Origin: Candidatus Eisenbacteria bacterium | GTDB taxonomy: Bacteria; Eisenbacteria; RBG-16-71-46; CAIMUX01; JAHJDP01 | Direction: 5' to 3' | NCBI GenBank assembly: GCA_018831195.1 | Contig: JAHJDP010000004.1 | Coordinates: 1-53,775 of the forward strand | Length of the DNA stretch: 53,775 nucleotides | Shown: positions 1 to 27,900 of the stretch, in pieces | How the letters are laid out: each line of letters opens with the position of its first letter | How positions within the stretch are numbered: the stretch's first letter is position 1 | Translations under genes and position numbers: made by a program | Notes under the pieces: generated by a model | The model's database searches: none | Told to the model about the DNA's origin: nothing | The model's input: only the letters and a program-made list of their open reading frames with translations

Positions 1-960
1 CAGGTCGGCGTACGCTCCCAGCATCACTTCGCCAAAGTCAAGGGAGGTCGGATTCACATCACAGTCCGGCGCATAGTCGCCGTCACCGGTGCAGGAAACA
101 TCGGCGCAGTCGGTACCCGTCTCGATCGTGCACTGATGAATACCGGCCGATGCCGGCGCATACCGGACCGTCACAAGCTTGGACTCATCCGCGCCGAGGC
201 TGTAGGAGCCGCCACCACCCGTGATGCTATAGTGATCACACGACTCGCTCACCGTGCCGGTCAGGGTGCTTCCACCGATATTCGTGATCGTGAAGGTCTT
301 ATACAGGGTGCTACCGATATCAACCTCGCCAAAATCAAGATTGGTTGGAGAGACCGAACAGGCGGCCGGATAATCGGACATGCCGACGCAAGAGACATTC
401 TCGCAATCGGTGCCTGTTTCAATCATACAGTTGTTATCGCCGGGGATCACCGGCTCAAATCGCACCGTGACAACGACAGACTGGCCGGCGCCAAGGCTGT
501 AAGGGCCGCCACCGGAGACGATGCTGTAATTCGGATCCGATGCGCTCACCGTTCCTGTTAATGTGCCCCCACCGGTATTTGTAATTGTGAAAGGGGCATC
601 TGCGTTTTCTCCGATGAACATAAATCCGAAATCGATTTCTTCCGTATCGACGGAGCAGAGCGGCGGATCTTCGCCCACACCTGAACAGGAAACGTCGCCA
701 CAACAGGGGCTGCCGGTTTCAATGGCGCAGCTATGCGGCCCCGAGGATGTCGGCGCGAATCGCACCGTCACCGTAACAGATTGCCCCGCATTGAGGCTGT
801 AGGATCCCCCGCCTGAAATGACGTTGAAATCGCTACAAGTCTCGCTCACCGTTCCCGCTAAAGTCCCCAGCGCCGTATTTGTAATAGTGAATGAATCATC
901 CGCAAATCCGCCAACGGCGACCGTGCCAAAATCAAGAGTGGATGGTGCGGCAAGGCAATC
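1..960 (-). repeat. Tandem ~300-bp repeats encoding choice-of-anchor D (ASH-like) domains
   Basis: Inside the M6 protease gene, about 300-bp units recur at roughly 960-660, 660-360 and 360-60, with a fourth beginning at about 60. Each encodes the same cysteine-framed Ig-like domain, with the landmarks LDFG, FTITN, GTVS, YSL and IETG in the same order. The DNA of the units is still visibly similar, for example around the IETG and FTITN codons, so copy number may vary between strains by recombination. They probably act as a rigid stalk or sugar/protein-binding array. Confidence 0.8.
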
Positions 961-2574
961 GGCCGGCCCGTAAAAATCGGCCGACATTGTGCCTGTGCTG
1001 CCGCTGATATTTTCTACAGAGATATAAGTTCCACAATCATCATAAGACGTACAATTCGGAATCGTTGATTCGTTGAATGCCGCATATCCTGTTATGGAGT
1101 TATAAAAATCCTGCGAATCACCGCTGTTGTTTCCGAGCTCTAGATCATAGCTTCCGTCAGCCTGTTCAATTGAAATGCCATACCATTTCTCGCCATTCGA
1201 GGGATTCGGTGGGAGGCTGCTACAATCGCAGTTATCTTCTCCCCGATAGGTTCCGCCCGAAACACACTCCGCTTCATTAGGCCGCCAATAGTTCCTATCC
1301 ATCACATCTTCATCCACGTGATAGATAAGAACTCCGTGGGCATTCGGAGAAATGCGGATGAGCCCTTCGTCAAAGCCGATCTGCTGCCGGTTTTCAACAA
1401 GCCAATATTCCTGACCTGAACTCGAGGGGTTGATCAATTTGAATATGGCATCGGAACCTGTTGTTTCAATTGGAGGAATATCTGTATCTGGAAGGCATCC
1501 CAGTACCTCAACAGGAGTGGCAAAACCTAATTGCATGATACCCCAGGCGCTTGGATGAGCTGGTGAATTTCCGGAGCACTCGCTAATATTGGGGCTTCGG
1601 TTCCAACTGCCGCCGGCCATAAGACTGTAGCGGCCGGTACCGGAAGATTGACTACCGTAGTCGTATTCGTCGGGCAATCCGAGAACATGCCCGAATTCAT
1701 GCGCGTAGACACCCACGGCCGGCAACCAGGGGCCGCTGGTCGATCCGCCCTCGCCGGTCGTGTTGCCGCCGCACTCCGGCTCCATTGAGTAATTCGTGAT
1801 CTGAACGCCATCAACATAGAGATCGGGCGGGGTTGTGCCCCATCCGTCGTTTGTATCAATGCTCCAGGCATGCGACCAGATGAGAGTCTCGTAGCCGTTC
1901 CATTCGGCGCCGGAGCCCGAATGAACGATAAAGAGATTCTGCACCTTTCCGCCAGAGGCGTATTGAGAGAAATCGACATACGGATCTGCGGCCATGACCG
2001 CTTCCATGACCAAACGTTGTACATTACGGGGATAAGGCCCAAACCCATTGTCGTGTGTGCCATCATTGTCACAATAGTAGGTGTAACTATTTGGAGCTGT
2101 TACCCATCCCACCGAACTGGGGAGGTTTAATGTAATAATGTCAACCTCGCCATAGGAGATTTCATTGTAAAAATTCTTTAGCGTGCGATCAGTTGTCGGA
2201 TCGGCGCCGCCGCGAACATACGTCGTTCCGAAAAGCATATCGTCGAAAACCGTTGGGGAATACCGAATGGTAGGTCCGCCGGGCGGGTTATCGGTAAACT
2301 CAATGAGTATAACAATCGCCTTGACCGTTTCGGTGAGCTTGTCCGGTGTCCTCGATAGCGCATTGACGGATCTTCCACCTTGGGAAGCGAACCGCGCCTC
2401 GGTTCGAGAGATTGGGATTTCCTCTCCCCGCTCTTTCATCCGGTCGATGATATCGGGGTCCAGCGGCATAAAGCTTGGAATACTGCCGACCGCTTCCGTA
2501 TGCGAATCCGCCTGAACCACCGCAAATGCCAGCAAACACACCGCACAACCCAAAACCCACCCTGAACATCTCAT
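1..2574 (-). CDS. Secreted M6-family metalloprotease with choice-of-anchor D repeats (3' truncated by window edge)
   Basis: The minus frame is open from ATG at 2574 to base 1, so the C-terminus lies outside the window. The start has a Shine-Dalgarno AGAGGGG at 2584-2590, nine bases away. The N-terminus is a signal peptide (MRCSGWVLGCAVCLLAFAVV). The catalytic core shows HEFGHVLGLPDEYD at residues 292-305, matching HExxHxxGxxD zinc ligands H292, H296 and D302, followed by a Met-turn-like YSLMAGG; this is the immune-inhibitor-A/M6 pattern. From about residue 540 come tandem ~100-residue Ig-like units (C...LDFG...FTITN...GTVS...YSL...VTVRF.P...C.IETG..C..VSC.G), three complete and a fourth cut by the edge. 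A secreted peptidase acting on extracellular protein is expected. By analogy with its neighbours a C-terminal sorting tail may follow outside the window; that is inference. Confidence 0.88.
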   Translation of the reverse strand, partial: MRCSGWVLGCAVCLLAFAVVQADSHTEAVGSIPSFMPLDPDIIDRMKERGEEIPISRTEARFASQGGRSVNALSRTPDKLTETVKAIVILIEFTDNPPGGPTIRYSPTVFDDMLFGTTYVRGGADPTTDRTLKNFYNEISYGEVDIITLNLPSSVGWVTAPNSYTYYCDNDGTHDNGFGPYPRNVQRLVMEAVMAADPYVDFSQYASGGKVQNLFIVHSGSGAEWNGYETLIWSHAWSIDTNDGWGTTPPDLYVDGVQITNYSMEPECGGNTTGEGGSTSGPWLPAVGVYAHEFGHVLGLPDEYDYGSQSSGTGRYSLMAGGSWNRSPNISECSGNSPAHPSAWGIMQLGFATPVEVLGCLPDTDIPPIETTGSDAIFKLINPSSSGQEYWLVENRQQIGFDEGLIRISPNAHGVLIYHVDEDVMDRNYWRPNEAECVSGGTYRGEDNCDCSSLPPNPSNGEKWYGISIEQADGSYDLELGNNSGDSQDFYNSITGYAAFNESTIPNCTSYDDCGTYISVENISGSTGTMSADFYGPADCLAAPSTLDFGTVAVGGFADDSFTITNTALGTLAGTVSETCSDFNVISGGGSYSLNAGQSVTVTVRFAPTSSGPHSCAIETGSPCCGDVSCSGVGEDPPLCSVDTEEIDFGFMFIGENADAPFTITNTGGGTLTGTVSASDPNYSIVSGGGPYSLGAGQSVVVTVRFEPVIPGDNNCMIETGTDCENVSCVGMSDYPAACSVSPTNLDFGEVDIGSTLYKTFTITNIGGSTLTGTVSESCDHYSITGGGGSYSLGADESKLVTVRYAPASAGIHQCTIETGTDCADVSCTGDGDYAPDCDVNPTSLDFGEVMLGAYADL

Positions 2575-2661
2575 CGACGAAAACCCCTCTGGATGTCCTG
2601 ACACGCGCTGCTTGGAAAAGTTGGCTTTTGTGACCCCGCAAATCCCTGTAATTGAATCTCT

Positions 2662-2679
2662 TGTTGAGATTTCTCAACA
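2662..2679. promoter_or_regulatory. Perfect 8-bp inverted repeat in the leader of the M6 protease gene
   Basis: TGTTGAGA-TT-TCTCAACA is a perfect inverted repeat with a 2-base centre. It lies between the likely -10 box (2705-2710) and the ATG at 2574, about 20-35 bases past the expected transcription start. It could be a repressor operator or a leader hairpin. No regulator gene is adjacent, so the partner is unknown. Confidence 0.4.
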
Positions 2680-2704
2680 GAAACAATGATGCGGATTCCG
2701 CCAT

Positions 2705-2713
2705 ATTATACCA
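2705..2713 (-). promoter_or_regulatory. Extended -10 promoter for the M6 protease gene
   Basis: On the minus strand the sequence TGGTATAAT is a consensus TATAAT with an upstream TGn extension. No good -35 hexamer is found 17 bases upstream (TAGCAA). The start codon is about 125 bases downstream. Similar TGn-TATAwT boxes precede two other secreted-protein genes in this window. Confidence 0.55.
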
Positions 2714-2789
2714 GAAAAACCAGCGATTTGCTAATGTGTTCGCACTTTTTCAAGGGCTGGATCTGTCCGTTATTTTTACTTCGTCAGCA

Positions 2790-2844
2790 TTGCCGGCGCA
2801 GAGCGTGACAGGCGCGATTGTCAGCGTGCAGGCATTTGTTAGGT
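2790..2844 (-). other. attC-like recombination site after the DUF6796 gene (one end degenerate)
   Basis: The minus-strand ACCTAAC at 2838-2844 fits the integron inverse core RYYYAAC and contains the TAA stop of the preceding gene. Next to it is the L-box-like CAAATGCCTGC, and TGACA/TGTCA pairs around 2811-2829. The far core is not recognisable, so the left boundary is approximate. This would be the distal end of the cassette array. Confidence 0.4.
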
Positions 2845-3501
2845 ATCAGATTCTTTCTTCCAAGTTGTGATGATTGACACCGCAAAGAAGACACAGAAGG
2901 TCAAATTGATATACCCCCCCATGATCACCGCGCCAACCGGCGCCGGAAAGAACGAAGTCCCCAGTAGGAGACCGAAAAGCATCAACAGGCCCGGATTCGC
3001 CAAGACCGTCCAACGTGGGTAACGACTTCGACCCATGAGAACAAGGACGGCGAGAATCGCACTTACAAGATAGCCTGGCGCTGCTGAAGCCTTAAATACC
3101 GTTTCCAGGTAGGATCCAAGGGCGTCGGTAAATGGATTGAAACCGGCTACATTTGCCAATCCGTACTTGAAAGAGAGCATTCGGACGCCCCACAGAACAT
3201 GGTATGCGCTCCCTGTTACAATCATGGCGGTGAGTCCAACTAAGATCATCCTTGCTGCAAACCGCCCAGCCTGACGTGTGTTGAGGTAGATGTGCCAGAA
3301 ACCGGCAAGGTACAACATCGCGCCGACAGGCCCCAACAACCCACCAACATAGATCCGTGCCAGGGACGCCTTTTCCGCTACTCGATGGGCGTCAACCCAA
3401 AAGTCTGCCGCGCTCCCCCAGTGGCCGTAGAGAAGCATATCCCCCACGAGAAGGACGATAGCGCCAATGAAGCCGACGATTCCAGCGGTACGCCTGTTCA
3501 T
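2839..3501 (-). CDS. Multi-pass membrane protein, DUF6796-like
   Basis: This encodes about 220 residues with roughly six to seven hydrophobic segments, beginning MNRRTAGIVGFIGAIVLLVG. The start at 3501 is chosen because GAGGAGAG sits six bases upstream; an alternative start at 3534 lacks one. Conserved-looking features are the early GDMLLYGHW motif and a proline/glycine-rich C-terminal helix pair. I recognise the family only as the uncharacterised DUF6796-type membrane proteins; no catalytic residues are evident. The TAA stop is embedded in an ACCTAAC integron-like core, and a degenerate core lies 19 bases upstream of the start, so this is probably a mobile gene cassette. Its function is unknown. 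Confidence 0.7.
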   Translation of the reverse strand: MNRRTAGIVGFIGAIVLLVGDMLLYGHWGSAADFWVDAHRVAEKASLARIYVGGLLGPVGAMLYLAGFWHIYLNTRQAGRFAARMILVGLTAMIVTGSAYHVLWGVRMLSFKYGLANVAGFNPFTDALGSYLETVFKASAAPGYLVSAILAVLVLMGRSRYPRWTVLANPGLLMLFGLLLGTSFFPAPVGAVIMGGYINLTFCVFFAVSIITTWKKESDT

Positions 3502-3519
3502 CTTCTCTCCTCGTGCGAC

Positions 3520-3639
3520 ACCTAAAGCGAACATCAGCGTCGAAACCGCTGTCTCTGCACAAGAATCTCATGAGGCAGGTGGGGCGGGGGGTTAGATGTC
3601 CCCAACGACGTCGGTGTCCGGTTCATATGCTGGTTAGAC
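3520..3639 (-). other. attC-like site between the GAF gene and the DUF6796 gene
   Basis: On the minus strand the site opens with GTCTAAC (3633-3639), which contains the TAA stop of the GAF gene, and closes with TTTAGGT (3520-3526), one base off GTTRRRY. The closing end is preceded by GCTGATGTTCGC. Internal pairing is modest (CAGC/GCTG, AACC/GGTT). A second RYYYAAC (minus ATCTAAC, 3592-3598) is an alternative inner core. Confidence 0.42.
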
Positions 3640-4317
3640 GGATTTATTGATCTCCCTTTCATAGCACTGCGGGCAGATCCCGTGAGAGGGCCTTGCGCCG
3701 GAAATATCATGGACATATTTTTCTACCGAGATCCACTTGCCTGTTTTTTCGCGGACCTTCTTGCAATAACTACAGATCGGATAAATCACACTCAAATCAT
3801 CAAGCAAACGATCCCGGCGGTCTATCTCCTCTTTGTCTAAAACAATGCGAAGAGACAGTTCGATCATCCTCTTGATCTGCTTGACCAATCTGATGTGCAT
3901 TTCATTATGAGCGTTCTGCTTGTTGTCCAGGAAACAAACTGTCCCGAACTGCCCTCCATCAGGACGCTCAATGGGCATGCCCAGGTAAGAGACAATGTGC
4001 AGATCGACTGCAGCTGCATTGTCTTTCCACTGAGAATCCTGGAGCGCATTTGGAATTAGATTAAGCCCCCTGCTCTTCAGAGTATACTCACAGTACCATC
4101 CGGAATCTGGGTACGGCGACGTGTACGCCGCAGGATAGGGGTTGCCCTCAGTCTCACTTGAAAGGAGGATCTCAATTTCCTTACCGTCAACGCGCGTGAT
4201 CAGCCCCGCTGGAACACCAAGGATCTCAGCCGTCTCGTTGAGCAGGTTCTGCCATTCTCTTAAAAGATCTTCGGTAAGCGTTTTTCGATTGAACGGGTTT
4301 GCATCCATGTTTTCCAT
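3634..4317 (-). CDS. GAF-domain sensor-like protein with C-terminal Cys cluster
   Basis: This protein has about 227 residues. The ATG at 4317 is preferred because GGGGAAGTG precedes it; a GTG at 4341 is possible. Residues about 25-175 read as a GAF domain (LLNETAEILGVPAGLITRV, then GWYCEYTL, then YLGMPIERPDG.QFGTVCFLD), a fold that binds small molecules or chromophores. After a helical linker (IDRRDRLLDDL) comes a compact ICSYCKKVR...W..VE.YV...SHGICPQCYE segment whose two CxxC pairs suggest zinc binding. There is no output kinase or cyclase domain, so it is probably a soluble sensing or adaptor module. It is flanked by integron-like attC sites and is unrelated to its neighbours, as expected for a gene cassette. 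Confidence 0.8.
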   Translation of the reverse strand: MENMDANPFNRKTLTEDLLREWQNLLNETAEILGVPAGLITRVDGKEIEILLSSETEGNPYPAAYTSPYPDSGWYCEYTLKSRGLNLIPNALQDSQWKDNAAAVDLHIVSYLGMPIERPDGGQFGTVCFLDNKQNAHNEMHIRLVKQIKRMIELSLRIVLDKEEIDRRDRLLDDLSVIYPICSYCKKVREKTGKWISVEKYVHDISGARPSHGICPQCYEREINKSV

Positions 4318-4365
4318 ATTCACTTCCCCTGATTTTTCCACAAGATATCGCTTTGAATGCGGTAG

Positions 4366-4427
4366 GTCTAACGCTGCGGATTAGAAGCGGCTCGTCAGAG
4401 GCGTCTCACTGCATCCGCTTGTGTACA
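4366..4427 (-). other. attC-like integron recombination site (best example in the window)
   Basis: The minus strand ends in GTTAGAC (4366-4372), a perfect GTTRRRY core, 49 bases before the GAF gene start. The imperfect palindrome pairs GCGGAT (4376-4381) with ATCCGC (4413-4418), and the opposite core is degenerate (TGTACAC, 4421-4427). The arrangement of core, CGCTGCGGAT arm, central hairpin and GCATCCGCTTG arm is that of common ~60-bp attC sites. Confidence 0.6.
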
Positions 4428-4513
4428 CCCGGCAGGGGCGTGGTCTGAAGGAGGCCTGCGTGTTCGAGCGTGCTACTGGCACCGCCGGTCGACGTTGCTC
4501 ACGACGCGCTACA

Positions 4514-5041
4514 CTATTCCTTCACTCTGAATTCCTGATAGTGGCCCCCCGCCAACTCGCCATTTTCTTTTAGCTTGAACGTGTCCTTCAAAACACCTGT
4601 TGGGTCGAGTTGGAGCACCGTTTCGAATTCCTTCGACTCCTCGGGCCAATGATTATGACCTCGAAGCACGATATTTCCGTCCTGCAGAGCGACGACACCC
4701 TCTCCAACTATGCCTCGGCTGTTCAAGTCAATGAAAAGAACTTCCTTGCGATTCGGGCTCCAAAAGAAATGGGTTTCGCTGAAGAAGTTGAGCGCAACAA
4801 CCTCTCTCGAGTATTTCACCGCCATTCCATTCAAAACCGGCTCGAATCGGAGAGAGATGACCAAATCGGGAACGTTGTCGCCAACGTATCCACCCTCCCA
4901 GTTCAAGCCTAACAGCGGCTCTAGAAAACGAAGATGTTCTTCCAAATCAGCACCACTCGATGCTGAAGAAAGGGCCACCAATAACAAAATGGCCACAAGG
5001 GTCGTCAGTCTCGACATACACTGCATTCGCTCAATCCTCAT
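4514..5041 (-). CDS. Small secreted protein, predicted beta-barrel (lipocalin/DUF1579-like), function unknown
   Basis: The product has up to 175 residues with a signal peptide (MSRLTTLVAILLLVALSSASSGA). Three in-frame ATGs lie near the start; the one at 5026 has GAGG at suitable spacing, while 5041 is the longest. The mature part alternates short beta strands: LLGLNWEGGYV, VISLRFEPVLNGMAVKYSREV, ETHFFWSPNRKEVLFIDL, GIVGEGVVALQDGNIVLRGH, then a final GGHYQEFRV. This layout resembles small periplasmic barrels that measure or bind a ligand. No catalytic motif is visible. It is a single gene between integron-like sites with AT-richer codons than its chromosomal neighbours, so lateral acquisition is likely. 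Confidence 0.65.
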   Translation of the reverse strand: MRIERMQCMSRLTTLVAILLLVALSSASSGADLEEHLRFLEPLLGLNWEGGYVGDNVPDLVISLRFEPVLNGMAVKYSREVVALNFFSETHFFWSPNRKEVLFIDLNSRGIVGEGVVALQDGNIVLRGHNHWPEESKEFETVLQLDPTGVLKDTFKLKENGELAGGHYQEFRVKE

Positions 5042-5321
5042 TGGTTTTTGCCGAAGTTGCTGTCCGCCTCACCTGCCGCTTCTCCTTGATTGTAAGGATA
5101 CTCCATGCCCCAGGATAAATGGTCAAGGACCATTCATTGTTCTATTCATCCCCGCTTCAAAAGCCGGCTCAACGTTTTCAGCCTCTTTGAGAGCAAAGCC
5201 GCGGATGGATCGATTCCGGGGAGCTAATATTCCTTGCGCTCCATAGCTGAATTCATGGGGATCGAGTCAATCTGCCCTATGACAGCCGAGGACAGAATAG
5301 GTAAGGTAAATAAAATCATTA
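5042..5321. other. Gene-free 280-bp spacer inside the cassette region
   Basis: No convincing ORF is present. On the minus strand a GTTGAGC (5167-5173) fits the integron core GTTRRRY, and GCCTAAT (5321-5327), one base off RYYYAAC, overlaps the upstream gene's TAA stop. The two could be the ends of a decayed ~160-bp attC, but the arms do not pair convincingly. Confidence 0.3.
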
Positions 5322-6020
5322 TTAGGCCTCTCTTCGCCCCCAGCCTACCGATTCATTTGCGTCTGAGACGCCCGGCAGGGTTCGACAAAATAGGGTCGCC
5401 AGCAATACACAAACGACCAGAAATACACCAACGTACCCTACGATTCCAATGTTTCGCACTTGCATGTTCCCCAGTACGACACCAATCAAGCCGGCGAGTG
5501 CGAGCGCTCCACTTGCGAACATCGTTACTCGGACCCAAGTGGCTAAACGGGTCCCGTTGAAAACTGGGGCTGCGAACAGCATCGAAAAAGCAAAGAAGAC
5601 GTCCCAGCCTAGTATGTCGAGCGCGTATACTACCGAGGGCCAATTGAACGACATAAACAAAGGCAGCCACGGCTGCGCGGCAAAGATAGGCTGGCGGCTT
5701 AGAGTCAAAATGACAAAGTGCAGGCTACAGGTCAGGCCGGCGAGGAGGCCCATGAAAACGACGGATATAAGGCTAAGCGATTTTGACGGGCGTGGCGCCC
5801 AAGCATGAACCGCCACCATGAGCGCGACCATCGCTGGCATCATGGCGATGATAAGGATTTCGAGGATCGAGAACATCGGATCGCGTATCGGCTGATCCGG
5901 GGACTCAAGCATTGCGAGCCCGAGAACCAGCGTAGATGCGTAGGCGACCAGTAGAACAGCTGTCGCAACGGCCGAGTATATCCCGAGCCGGCGAGCGGTT
6001 GCGGTGAATTCTATCGACAT
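5322..6020 (-). CDS. Seven-helix-like integral membrane protein, function unknown
   Basis: This encodes 232 residues with about seven hydrophobic helices: YSAVATAVLLVAYASTLVLG, ILEILIIAMMPAMVALMVAV, SLISVVFMGLLAGLTCSLHF and others. The N-terminus is short and the C-terminus is charged (ANESVGWGRREA). No active-site motif or known family is recognised. A perfect integron-like core (minus GTTAGGT, 6050-6056) lies 29 bases upstream of the start, and the TAA stop overlaps a near-core GCCTAAT. It is therefore best seen as the first gene of the proposed cassette array; the spacing suggests translation from a nearby leader rather than an operon with the propeller gene upstream. Confidence 0.65.
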   Translation of the reverse strand: MSIEFTATARRLGIYSAVATAVLLVAYASTLVLGLAMLESPDQPIRDPMFSILEILIIAMMPAMVALMVAVHAWAPRPSKSLSLISVVFMGLLAGLTCSLHFVILTLSRQPIFAAQPWLPLFMSFNWPSVVYALDILGWDVFFAFSMLFAAPVFNGTRLATWVRVTMFASGALALAGLIGVVLGNMQVRNIGIVGYVGVFLVVCVLLATLFCRTLPGVSDANESVGWGRREA

Positions 6021-6049
6021 GCTGCCTTCCCCCGCGCTCTGTTTAGTAA

Positions 6050-6132
6050 ACCTAACCGTAACGGTTTTCTTGCGTTATGATGACGGCGCGATAACCTCAT
6101 TGGAGCCAGGGTATCGGCCGGTTCATTTTGTT
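6050..6132 (-). other. attC/attI-like boundary of the cassette region
   Basis: Minus GTTAGGT at 6050-6056 fits GTTRRRY exactly and sits just before the first cassette gene. About 75 bases away is minus CTCCAAC, one base off RYYYAAC, followed by AAAATGAACCGG. AACCGTAACGGTT next to the core is a small inverted repeat. No integrase gene is nearby, so whether this is attC or attI is unclear. Confidence 0.4.
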
Positions 6133-6169
6133 GGAGATATCAATATGATGAAATCGAACCGCTGCCATA

Positions 6170-7969
6170 TCATCTCAGAATCGTCACATTTCTCCTTATG
6201 ACCATTTGCTCCGTTTCCAGTTTAATAAAATAGACTCCCGGGGGTACCCTCGTGCCATCGGACGCGAGGCCGTCCCAGCTCACTGTGTGTCTGCCGGCGG
6301 GTCGTTGTCCCTTTGTAAGAGTGCGCACCACGCGTCCGGTCACATCATAGACAGCCAGCGTCGCCCGGCCGGGCTCAGGCAGATCAAAGCGGACACGGGT
6401 CGTTTGAGTGAATGGATTCGGACGGCAGCAGATGAGTCCATTGGTCCCGTGGGCGCCGGGCTCGGGCGCGCCGCTCTCTGCAGTCGCGGGTCCGTCATAA
6501 TAAATATCGTATAAGTCGGTGGCATAGTCGCGCTCATCGGTCCAGCAGATGGCGGCCTCCTCCTCAGTCGGCCGGGTAGGATTCACGCCGACAGCCGGCC
6601 ACGGATAGTCGGAGCTGGCGTTCAAGCCATCATTTATATGCGCCGAGAGGGACCACGCCCCGGGCGCCGTGTAAGCGGCCGATCGGTAGTCGATCATATT
6701 GTCATGGTGGAAAGCGGCGTGGAAAGCTCCTTGGCTGAGACTTGTTTGCAGATCCGGCGCCAGCTCGTTGTCGACCGCCGCACAACTCATGCACAGCGGT
6801 GAACTCCATGAAGCGCCGGCGTCTTGCGAGTAGATATACCAGATGTCCTCGTCGAGCTCGTGATAGAAGCGGGCATAGGCAATCAGTACGGTTCTACTGG
6901 TCAGGTATTCTTTGATGGCGCCTATCACCGGATCATAATCCTTGTCGTCGTTTGTGATCAGCCGCACTGCGCCGTCCCATGTCGCCCCATAGTCGGTGCT
7001 GCGGTTTGCAAAGATCTCTTGGTCCTGATCCGTGTGTGGATAAACAGGCGTGTTGTACGTGGCATAGAGATACTGGGTCCCGAAGTCTATATCGGGACGG
7101 TTCTCAGACGCGTCGTAACCGCTGTCGTGCCAGCCGATGATATCGGGCATGGCCTGCCAGTGTTGTCCGTGGTCGAGCGACCGGGAGAAACATACGGCCC
7201 AACCCTCCACCGTCAACACATTGAAAACCATATAAGCATACCAGGCGTCGTATTCGGATGAGTCGGTCACGATGCGCGGGTTCGATAAGCCATCGGGATT
7301 GTCGAAAACATGCGGCGTGTCAGTGACGCCGGAGCCGTCGAGGGCAATCCGCAAAAGCCAAATATCATTCGTTTCCAATTGATAGGCGACAAGCAGCCAA
7401 TTTTCATCCCCCTCGCCCACGGCCATTGACAGGTTGCCGCGGTCAGTCGTGGGACTTCCCATTGAGAGCCAGAGTTCCCAATCGTTTCCTCCATTGACGG
7501 AGCGGAAAATCGCAAGGGAGTTTGAATTGCTGACTTCTCTGGCGGCGTACAGCGTGCCGTTCGAGTCCCCGGCGATGACGGGTTTGATCTCGCCGTTCGG
7601 ACCCCCGCAGAGAAAGATGTCATCGTTCGTCCAGCGCTCACCTTCCAGGATTTGCCCACCGTTCGCATAACTCACCGTGACACCCGGCTCGAGTCCGCCA
7701 TCCGACATTTGGAACTCGAGCGATTGCCCGCGCAGACGGGCGAGCTCTACCTCGAGGGCCAGGGCGGCTTCCAAATCCCCGGCTTTCTTGGCGTCATGCA
7801 GATCATCGAGCAACCGGGATACTTCTGGGTCGGCCGCTGTGGGCCAACCGGTCACGACCGTTTCCCTCCCTTCATCGGCTTCCCGATTCCCCGCGTGGGA
7901 TACCTGAGGGGTTAGAAACATTCCGAGGAGAAGCGCAACAACCATTATACGGCGAGAGATATGCGGCAC
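6170..7969 (-). CDS. Secreted Asp-box beta-propeller protein (sialidase-like fold) with T9SS-type sorting tail
   Basis: The protein has 599 residues and starts at GTG 7969 behind an excellent AAGGAGG. A signal peptide (VVALLLGMFLTPQVSHAG) is followed by a helical segment with many charged residues, then a six-bladed-propeller-like region carrying four Asp boxes (RSVNGGNDWELW, RSLDHGQHWQAM, RSTDYGATWDGA, YSQDAGASWSSP). The sialidase arginine triad is not evident, so carbohydrate hydrolysis is uncertain; the fold may only bind. The last ~85 residues are a FlgD-like Ig/T9SS type A tail (PNPFTQTTRVRFDLP, YDVTGRVVRTL, GVYFIKL) ending in ILR. Export across both membranes is inferred from the tail. 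It is divergent from the PQQ-propeller gene, which carries the same kind of tail. Confidence 0.82.
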   Translation of the reverse strand: MPHISRRIMVVALLLGMFLTPQVSHAGNREADEGRETVVTGWPTAADPEVSRLLDDLHDAKKAGDLEAALALEVELARLRGQSLEFQMSDGGLEPGVTVSYANGGQILEGERWTNDDIFLCGGPNGEIKPVIAGDSNGTLYAAREVSNSNSLAIFRSVNGGNDWELWLSMGSPTTDRGNLSMAVGEGDENWLLVAYQLETNDIWLLRIALDGSGVTDTPHVFDNPDGLSNPRIVTDSSEYDAWYAYMVFNVLTVEGWAVCFSRSLDHGQHWQAMPDIIGWHDSGYDASENRPDIDFGTQYLYATYNTPVYPHTDQDQEIFANRSTDYGATWDGAVRLITNDDKDYDPVIGAIKEYLTSRTVLIAYARFYHELDEDIWYIYSQDAGASWSSPLCMSCAAVDNELAPDLQTSLSQGAFHAAFHHDNMIDYRSAAYTAPGAWSLSAHINDGLNASSDYPWPAVGVNPTRPTEEEAAICWTDERDYATDLYDIYYDGPATAESGAPEPGAHGTNGLICCRPNPFTQTTRVRFDLPEPGRATLAVYDVTGRVVRTLTKGQRPAGRHTVSWDGLASDGTRVPPGVYFIKLETEQMVIRRNVTILR

Positions 7970-24939: not shown

Positions 24940-27900
24940 GTGGGGGCGAAGATGGCGGACATCGATCAGGATTCCCGGCCGGGCTCACGGCCGGGCGCCG
25001 AGCAGCGATCCTGGAATGAGATTTTAAAGCAAACCTATCGACGGGCGCTCGGCCGCGCCGGGGCCGAATCGTCGCTCCTGGCTCTTGCTTGGGTCGCCCC
25101 CTTCTGGCTCCTGCTGCTCGCCCTGGGAATGCTGATGCCGGCATCCCCTCTTTCGGCTTGGATTTTTGCCGGATTAGCTTTGGCCGCGGGCCTGGGCGGT
25201 ATTATCTGGGGGCTTCGCCGTTATCTCCGCCGCCGTAGCGATCTGGAGACATTCGGCGCCTGGCTTGAACAAAGGGCCGATCTCTTTGATAACGAATTCA
25301 TCAATGCCCTCCGTCTCGAATTGAATCCCCTGGAAGGAGACCCGCTGGCCCGCCATCTGATCGGGAGGGTTATCGCGCGGGCGCGGAAGATCCATCACGA
25401 TCTGCCGATACCGAAGCTTTATCAAACCACCTCCTTGCGCCGTCCCGGCCTGATCGCGGCGGCGGCGGGCCTCATCGCGCTGCTGCTCTTCGTCCTGTCA
25501 CCGGTGGCCTTCCGCGATTCCCTCACGGCGCTGACCACCCCCGCTTCGATTCAGCCGCCCCTGGTGCTGATGACGGTGGCGCCGGGGGATATATCTCTCG
25601 ACCGGGGATCTTCCTTGGATGTGACCGCATCGGTGGAATCGACTGAAAAGATCGAAGCGGCGCATCTGTTGGTGAAGGGGGCGGATGGCGTTTGGCGTTC
25701 CTACCCGATGACGCCCACGGATGCACTCGATGGATCGGGGCGGCCGGCGGGTTCAGCCGACGCGGTCCCGGGCAGGCTCCGCAAGGATTTTTCGTATCAT
25801 TTCGCCGATCTCCAGGCAGGCCTGACCTATCTTGTCGCGACGGAGAGCGACCGGAGCCGGCCTTATCAGGTCACCCTGCGCGAACCCCTGCGCGCGCTGG
25901 GGTACCGCAAGATACTGGAATGGCCCTCTTATACAAAACTGCCCCGTCAATCCGAGGTGGCTTCTCATGGCGATTTCTCGGCCCTATTGGGAACGCGGGC
26001 AACGCTGCAGATCACCGCGTCGCGGCCGGGGGCGGAAGGAGCGGTGATTTGGAATTCCGGCGATCGGCAGGTTCTGCGCTCCTCCGGCGGCGAGTTGGAG
26101 GGCGGGTGGATCGTCGCAAAGGCCGATACCTACCGTGTCTCCCTCCGCGACACCCTCGGGGGCGCCTGGCGTTCAGAGCCCTTCGTGGTCAGCCTGCTGG
26201 ATGATCTTCCTCCCGTTTTGAGGGTCTTGTCACCGACCGGTGATCTCAACGTTCCCACCGACATGCAAGTTATTCTCGATGTGGAGTGTGTTGACGACTA
26301 CGGCCTGGGCGAGTTGGTTCTCATCTACAGCCGGGCGTGGGAGCCGCCGCAACGCCTGTCCCTCGGGTTGTGGGAATCGGCCCGCGAAGCCCGCATCACC
26401 TATCCGTGGGATTTGGAGGACTTGGGATTGCTGCCGGGAACGGAGGTTTCTTTCTTCTTCGAACTCTCCGACAACGACGCCGTCCTCGGGCCGAAGATCA
26501 CCCGCAGCGCCATGTTTACGATTCGCTTCCCGTCGCTGGCTGAAATGTATACCCAGCTGGAGGAAGAACAGGAACAGGATATATTCGACCTTGGTGAAAT
26601 GCTTGATGTACAAGAGAAGCTCCAGGATGACCTTGAAGAGATATCGAGAGAGCTGAAGAAGGAGACGGAGCTTTCCTGGGAGAAGCAGCAGGAAATCCAG
26701 GAATTTTTACAAGACCAGAAAAATCTGGGTGAGAGGCTTGAAGAGGTTGCGCAATCTTTGAATCAGTCTCTGGAGCAAATGGAACAGCAATCCCTCTTCA
26801 CACCGGAGATGGCGAGTAAACTCCAGCAAATTCGCGAATTGGTCAACGAGATCCAGAGTGAAGAATTTCACGAGTATATGAACGCCATGCAAGAGGCGAT
26901 GAACAACCTCAGCCGGCGGGATCTTGAGCAGGCGATGGAGGATTTCAAGTTTTCGCAGCAAGATCTGCAGAAGGGTCTGGACCGGACTCTGGAGCTTCTC
27001 AAACGGTTGATGGCCGAGGAGAAACTGGGGCGTCTGCAGCAAGAGGTCGAGAAATTGGCCATGGAGCAGAAGGCGCTGAATGAACAGCTGGCGGAGGCAT
27101 CCGGCGAAAAGACCGACGAGATGAAAGAAGAGGCGGCGGACAAGGCGGCTTCCGAATCCGAGGAGGGCGAGAAGACACAAGCAGCGGCCGAGTCGGATAA
27201 AGAAGCGGAATCGAATGAATCAACCGATTCAGATAAATCGGCGGAGCAGGAGAATTCGGAGAGTCAGGATTCCGAAAGCGCTTCAAGCAAGATGTCTGAA
27301 GCCGACCGGCAGGCCCTGCAGGAAGAGCAGAAGCGAATCGAGGAAGAAACAAAACGTCTCGAGAAGCAGCTCGAAGAACTCAGTAAAATGAGTGAGGAGT
27401 CATTGAAGCAATTGGCCGAGCAGATGAAGGAACTCCAGCGCAAGAACCTCCTCGATCAGGCGCAGCAGAATATGCAGCAATCCCAGCAGTCGATGTCCCA
27501 GGGAAAACCGAAAGACTCGCTGCGCTTCGGGCGCAAAGCCCAGCAGAATCTTGCGATGATGTCCCAGCAGCTGCAGTCGGCGAAGGAAGCGATGGAGAAG
27601 GACAACAATACCGAAATCACCCGGAAGCTTTTCGCCATCGCTAACAATCTTGTCTTTGTTTCACAAACCCAGGAAGGGCTTGTCTTGGAAGAGAGCCGCT
27701 ATTCAACCGATCAGTTGGCGGTGGAACAACAGGCCCTGCTTGAAGAGACCCGCACGAATCTCGATTCGCTATTTGCCGTGGGTCGTGAAACGCCGGTCAT
27801 CAGCATGGAACAGGCCCGTCTCATGGGCGAGGCGCTCCGCAAAATGGATCAATCGGTCCGCCATTTCGAAAGGGGCAGCCGCCAGCCGGCCAATGTTTTC

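Follow-up and report, generated by a model that had tools for sequence, protein, structure and literature searches.

Why does a string of four unrelated genes, all on the minus strand, lie between two ordinary chromosomal loci of a Candidatus Eisenbacteria genome, and did this string once have an integron integrase of its own? The locus is part of a 53,775-nucleotide stretch (the window) of contig JAHJDP010000004.1 (assembly GCA_018831195.1), here called C4. In the order in which they are read, the genes code for a seven-helix membrane protein, a barrel protein, a GAF-domain protein and a DUF6796 protein. A reading made from the letters of the DNA (the sequence-only reading) had proposed that these are four single-gene cassettes with attC-like sites and no integrase, resembling a cluster of attC sites lacking integron-integrases (CALIN). 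CALINs, as defined by Cury et al. (IntegronFinder), are about as frequent as complete integrons according to IntegronFinder 2 counts. Their origin is usually guessed, and loss of the integrase is one of the proposed routes. For this locus, we consider it very probable that positions 2803-6160 are a decayed sedentary chromosomal integron from which the integrase has been lost.

The evidence for a former integrase comes from the right end of the string, where two overlapping features are found.

6050 to 6056, minus strand: putative relic attI/first cassette junction with the core GTTAGGT (G/TTRRRY), 29 bases before the first open reading frame (ORF)
6050 to 6160, minus strand: predicted relic attI and first intI codons; intI would read on the plus strand, with a candidate start near 6146-6149

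The core heptamer 29 bases before the first gene had been noticed in the sequence-only reading, and it is present at 6056-6050. Positions 6054-6160 align with C65:3217-3324 of the same genome (80% identity over 109 bp), a segment that is located directly 5' of a disrupted intI and that runs into the integrase start. Region 6050-6160 also matches contig C37 (80% identity over 60 bp), and there is no other meaningful match to 6054-6160 elsewhere in the same genome. The similarity ends at the core, which reads GTTAGGT in the window and GTTGGAC in C65, or no more than about 20 bp from it, and the loci differ beyond this point. C65 and C37 have about 140 bp more in common, up to a second GTTA core, after which they differ as well. 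Integrase homology in the window ends after a few codons, beside the stop codon of the neighbouring gene, and a search with the TIGR02249 profile found no intI in C4, leaving only the start-region homology at 6054-6160. This homology marks 6050-6160 as a probable relic attI joined to what is left of a deleted intI, its first codons. Homology can thus reveal an attI in integrons other than class 1, which the standard tool does not search for attI.

The same segment bears on how the array arose. An integrase acting in trans might have placed the cassettes singly at a secondary site, a route that has been proposed in the literature, and the genome carries an intact intI on C69, without a detectable array, that could have acted in this way. 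However, off-target insertion would bring neither attI DNA nor an intI start, and 6050-6160 has both in the right order and orientation. The presence of these two relics therefore suggests that the array once had its own integrase and is not an off-target cassette cluster, an origin that we regard as very improbable. They point instead to integrase deletion, with the fresher copies in the same genome available for comparison.

The conserved attI region also contains a short open frame, VTVFLRYDDGAxTxLExGYR, at positions 3204-3293 of the C65 locus (L013) and 6046-6126 of the window. All three copies retain the frame, that of C37 with an in-frame deletion; it could encode a leader peptide or be a remnant of a lost gene.

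Within the array, one attC site is recognised by a covariance model.

4366 to 4426, minus strand: attC of cassette 2, with R', L' and L'' present and the outer R'' destroyed by an intron (covariance model R2, 19.3 bits)

A covariance-model check had been recommended along with the sequence-only reading, and it was carried out with our own models rather than that of IntegronFinder. Model R1 was built from 37 canonical attCs in cassette sense, collected from many phyla via integrases and including none from the window's genome. Model R2 was trained on 150 integron-locus matches, including a few on other contigs of the window's genome. Window sequences were excluded from the R2 training set, and thus 4366-4426 was scored by a model not built on the window. 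The site is the best R2 match in the window and lies on the cassette strand, with 19.3 bits compared to 9.7 bits for the runner-up (E 0.02 across the 53.8 kb and E 0.0013 across 2600-6200). It has the R and L boxes of an attC palindrome, including the R' core GTTAGAC (4372-4366, minus strand), an extra base in L'', and better folding of the bottom strand. As DNA, the bottom (plus) strand folds with a z score of -2.71 versus -0.11 for the top strand, an asymmetry that matches the expectation for an attC. In addition, 4372-4451 is 79% identical over 80 bp to C58:404-481, which carries the strongest attC found in the same genome (51.8 bits), although part of this similarity is intron DNA beyond R'' and not attC.

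The sequence-only reading had described this site as a 62-bp palindrome (4366-4427). Its nature as an attC is upheld, but the outer end from about 4421 is intron DNA rather than R''. GTGTAC, the end of an intron scar, stands where an RYYYAAC core would be, the R'' core having been ruined because the intron inserted there. This damage also explains why a scan of 2500-6200 for exact cores and complementary arms missed the site and returned no convincing site with at most one core mismatch. Thus, an intron scar can conceal an attC from detection. An Rfam gathering scan of the window gave no matches. Two other candidates were set aside: a 149-bp version of the attC (4366-4514) that reaches the stop codon of the barrel gene, its intervening DNA being the intron scar, and 25999-26077, which scored 16.2 bits with R1 and 9.7 bits with R2 and was treated as a chance match.

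The intron responsible has left the following trace.

4421 to about 4508, plus strand: group IIC-attC intron scar, with the intron 5' end at 4421-4451, followed by probable maturase C-terminal pieces at 4454-4479 and about 4472-4507

Group IIC-attC introns enter R'' at TTGT/T on the bottom strand, in the orientation opposite to the cassettes (PMC7923331). The 88-bp scar is inserted after TTGT in the R'' core of the attC and is likewise oriented opposite to the cassettes; the plus strand of the window reads CCGCTTGT and then GTACACCCGGC, which fits a TTGT/T insertion site. Positions 4421-4451 align with C37, C58 and the class 1 integron plasmid pENT-812c, all of which have a common group II intron 5' end beyond R''. 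In these three, matches to the Rfam family group-II-D1D4-3 are located about 100 bp from the aligned 5' end, and the intron of pENT-812c, located next to aadA2 within a class 1 integron, has an annotated group II maturase. The scar continues with two short pieces resembling a maturase C-terminus (RVRACYW, with RVRMCYW in C65), which are joined at a common GCTACTGG and match C47 and C65. These matches are short, with E values of 5e-4 and 0.07 in a small search. Judging from the alignments, the assignment of the 5' end is firm, and the remainder is likely to consist of maturase-derived pieces. Catalytic domains and a maturase are absent, and since 4366-4540 has no Rfam match and only short maturase-like pieces, we consider this element a scar and not an intron. 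It is similar to known group IIC-attC introns such as that of pENT-812c beside aadA2 in its location after TTGT in R'', its bottom-strand placement, its anti-cassette orientation and its alignable 5' end, whereas it differs in retaining just 88 bp that are internally deleted.

Two further attC sites are preserved in part.

3616 to 3639, minus strand: left-half attC, composed of the R'' core GTCTAAC (3639-3633), which contains the TAA stop of the GAF gene, plus L''; the right half is missing
2803 to 2851, minus strand: left half of the last attC, composed of the R'' core ACCTAAC (2844-2838), which contains the TAA stop of the DUF6796 gene, plus L''; cut at about 2803

Both cores, with the stop codons inside them, had been pointed out as evidence for sites at the gene ends. 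They prove to be well-formed left halves, but the right halves are missing at 3639 and 2844. When a left-half matrix was applied to the 107,504 window positions, 3639 (minus strand) ranked first with 13.2 bits and 2844 (minus strand) ranked fourth; R2 gives 9.0 bits for 3600-3639 (minus strand). The half site at the end of the DUF6796 gene is similar to the left half of a complete attC (C21:2324-2421, 31.7 bits; 86% identity over 50 bp) and to the contig end of a Krumholzibacteriia metagenome-assembled genome (L054; 81% identity over 43 bp).

A second R''-like left half, ATCTAACCCCCCGCCCCACC, is present at 3574-3597 (minus strand), 42 bp past the GAF stop, and 3597 (minus strand) ranks second with the same matrix. 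It may be the remains of another attC, and it suggests that a cassette between the GAF and DUF6796 genes was deleted.

The proposal of four single-gene cassettes stands with regard to a cassette array, but the seven-helix and barrel genes have no detected attC between them. This pair may be a fused or a two-gene cassette. The weak palindrome at 5144-5210 was rejected as a candidate for the missing site, as it has two core mismatches and no model support. In class 1 integrons, fused cassettes are known to arise when an attC is lost in part or in total (PMC4670013). The window resembles these examples in that attCs are cut to the R''/L'' half or lost and the genes are locked together. However, it differs in that the genome is environmental, the genes are unrelated and several sites have decayed in one array.

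Could the string simply be an ordinary group of accessory genes in which the core heptamers and the one palindrome arose by chance? Seven-base cores are common, and a complete attC is absent from three of the four gene ends, both of which are consistent with chance. In contrast, four independent matches to integron contigs of the same genome fall on the proposed sites, with Blast scores of 87.8, 61.7, 53.6 and 52.7 bits, whereas the best match from about 107 kb of control DNA reaches 36.5 bits. One control locus, on C87 (L142), was excluded, as attC-like DNA is present there too. Outside the array, the window has no matches to the integron contigs at E<=0.01. Moreover, the matched sites on C21, C37, C58 and C65 themselves score 27-52 bits with the covariance model, and intI adjoins the site on C65. 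A chance cluster is thus very improbable.

Repeats raise the separate concern that different integron arrays were misjoined during assembly. Integron contigs of this genome tend to end inside arrays or introns, where repeats broke the assembly. However, the locus is inside a 159-kb contig with host-like genes on both sides, and its identity to the other copies is only 79-86%, making collapsed repeats unlikely. We consider such an artefact to be highly improbable.

The four cassette genes and their neighbours are as follows.

5322 to 6020, minus strand: cassette gene 1, 232-amino-acid predicted multi-helix (seven-helix) membrane protein (ORF reading)
4514 to 5041, minus strand: cassette gene 2, 175-amino-acid predicted secreted (barrel) protein (ORF reading)
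3634 to 4341, minus strand: cassette gene 3, GAF-domain protein with a C-terminal Cys cluster (Pfam GAF_2, E 4.5e-08)
2839 to 3534, minus strand: cassette gene 4, DUF6796 membrane protein (Pfam PF20599, E 1.8e-20)
1 to 2574, minus strand: left flank gene, secreted M6 peptidase
6170 to 7969, minus strand: right flank gene, secreted FlgD/BNR-repeat protein

This arrangement agrees with the earlier description of four unrelated minus-strand genes between two ordinary chromosomal loci, and Pfam confirms the GAF and DUF6796 identities. The seven-helix and barrel proteins gave no Pfam family in a search of the window proteins, and all four cassette proteins are without an NCBIfam or PADLOC family. 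The TAA stop of cassette gene 1 resides in GCCTAAT, an R''-like heptamer with one mismatch. A consensus promoter scan listed no promoter near attI; it identified a good-quality extended -10 site at 2734-2705, which would serve the peptidase gene immediately beyond the array.

Gene presence in relatives, another recommended check, was assessed in 47 genomes of the phylum, none of which is from the same family as the window genome. Three of the genes are full length in no other genome of this set: the DUF6796 and barrel proteins are absent, and the GAF protein is found only in part, mostly as a C-terminal piece. The seven-helix protein occurs in one other genome from a different family (G046, 68% identity). 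This patchy distribution fits cassette cargo, and falls short of proof because the comparison set contains no same-family relative. Sites for attC at E<=0.001 are present in 21 of the 47 genomes, and in a search of relatives, 13 of 59 genomes had an integron integrase that scored above the family cut-off. When seven named genomes were compared, the highest NTP-transferase identity was with Krumholzibacteriota RA.bin123 (63%), which gives no more than a hint of affinity.

Several observations weigh against a decayed integron. Just one attC passes the covariance-model threshold, and its 19.3 bits are weak beside most integron attCs (24-73 bits). Between the seven-helix and barrel genes, neither the covariance model nor the half-attC matrix detected a site. 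There is no attC beside the seven-helix relative of G046, which is located at a contig end, and the comparison genomes include no close relative with an empty site. Furthermore, the putative attI at 6050-6160 is identified by homology and not by recombination, and residual similarity for about 15 bp past the core blurs the exact junction.

How, then, should the locus be classified? Like a CALIN, it has cassette-type genes on one strand, an attC and no functional intI nearby, and the sequence-only reading was correct that the window contains no intI. However, the locus keeps a recognisable attI and intI start, which are outside the CALIN definition and make it a truncated integron, and it has one attC site with E<1 over the window (R2), whereas the IntegronFinder 2 default for a CALIN is at least two. 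A complete integron has a functional intI beside the array, which is lacking here; the orientation is right for all four cassettes, accompanied by one attC and two half attCs. The locus shares with sedentary chromosomal integrons a putative attI, a divergent intI start and cassettes reading away from it, but its intI is deleted, its last attC is halved and there is no sign of an ability to capture or excise cassettes. The locus is an integrase-less relic, of a kind already known. It is valuable because an attI/intI start and an intron scar have been preserved, and these reveal how the array came about.

The attI homology, the single attC, the two half sites, the scar of the intron and the order and strand of the genes are observed in the DNA, and from these we infer a succession of events, a loss of mobility and transcription that starts on the attI side. 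Cassettes would have been captured at the core (6050-6056) by an integrase whose gene was on the plus strand immediately to the right of attI, and they would have been read on the minus strand, away from the integrase. Later, deletion would have left only the first codons of the integrase gene. The last attC would have been cut in half and the attC after the GAF gene would have lost its right half, while a group IIC-attC intron would have inserted into the attC after the barrel gene and subsequently been reduced to its 88-bp scar. The four genes would now be fixed and would behave as an ordinary accessory string, which may continue to be transcribed from a promoter close to attI. Mobility is not expected of the present locus, because it has no cis-encoded integrase, its one attC is without an R'' core and its other sites are halved. 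Rescue in trans by the C69 integrase is possible.

An inspection of the genome for intI elsewhere had also been suggested, and the TIGR02249 search covered all 5.24 Mb (123 contigs). One intact integron integrase (441 bits) is located on C69, and C65 carries a disrupted one. The former, at C69:1123-2064 (L012), is In0-like, and no attC was detected on the first 20 kb of the contig. Sites for attC occur on C21, C31, C37, C47, C51, C58 and C65, and the clear examples on these other contigs score 24-52 bits (R2). C37 retains a small internal piece of the integrase that is disrupted on C65. Within one attI/intI lineage, and alongside the intact but apparently cassette-less intI on C69, these loci could form a series of graded integron decay, from disruption on C65, through a fragment on C37, to the first codons in the window, whose cassettes would now be a fixed string read from a relic attI promoter. 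We offer this series tentatively and consider it doubtful. If true, it would be a natural record of captured genes turning into ordinary chromosomal genes.

Additional features were noted at these other loci. The disrupted-intI integron at C65:1-4400 (L013) has methyltransferase-like, HigBA-pair-like and secreted-protein cassette genes (named by eye), and the contig starts with the 3' part of a group II intron. The plus-strand cassette array at C37:1-6400 (L014) has attCs at 272-318, 985-1114, 4794-4855 and 6274-6333. In its middle are a fragment of an integrase and a relic of attI, and its cassette-like genes include those of TIR-like and TsaA-like proteins (named by eye). The C87 locus (76000-81000; L142) is probably another small array, with a 19-bit attC candidate at 78370-78428 and short matches to the attC regions of C21, C37 and C58. 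Finally, C58:1208-1970 (L138) carries a second, different group II intron (group-II-D1D4-7 and Intron_gpII matches) that is located directly after the attC at 1086-1157 in the cassette orientation.

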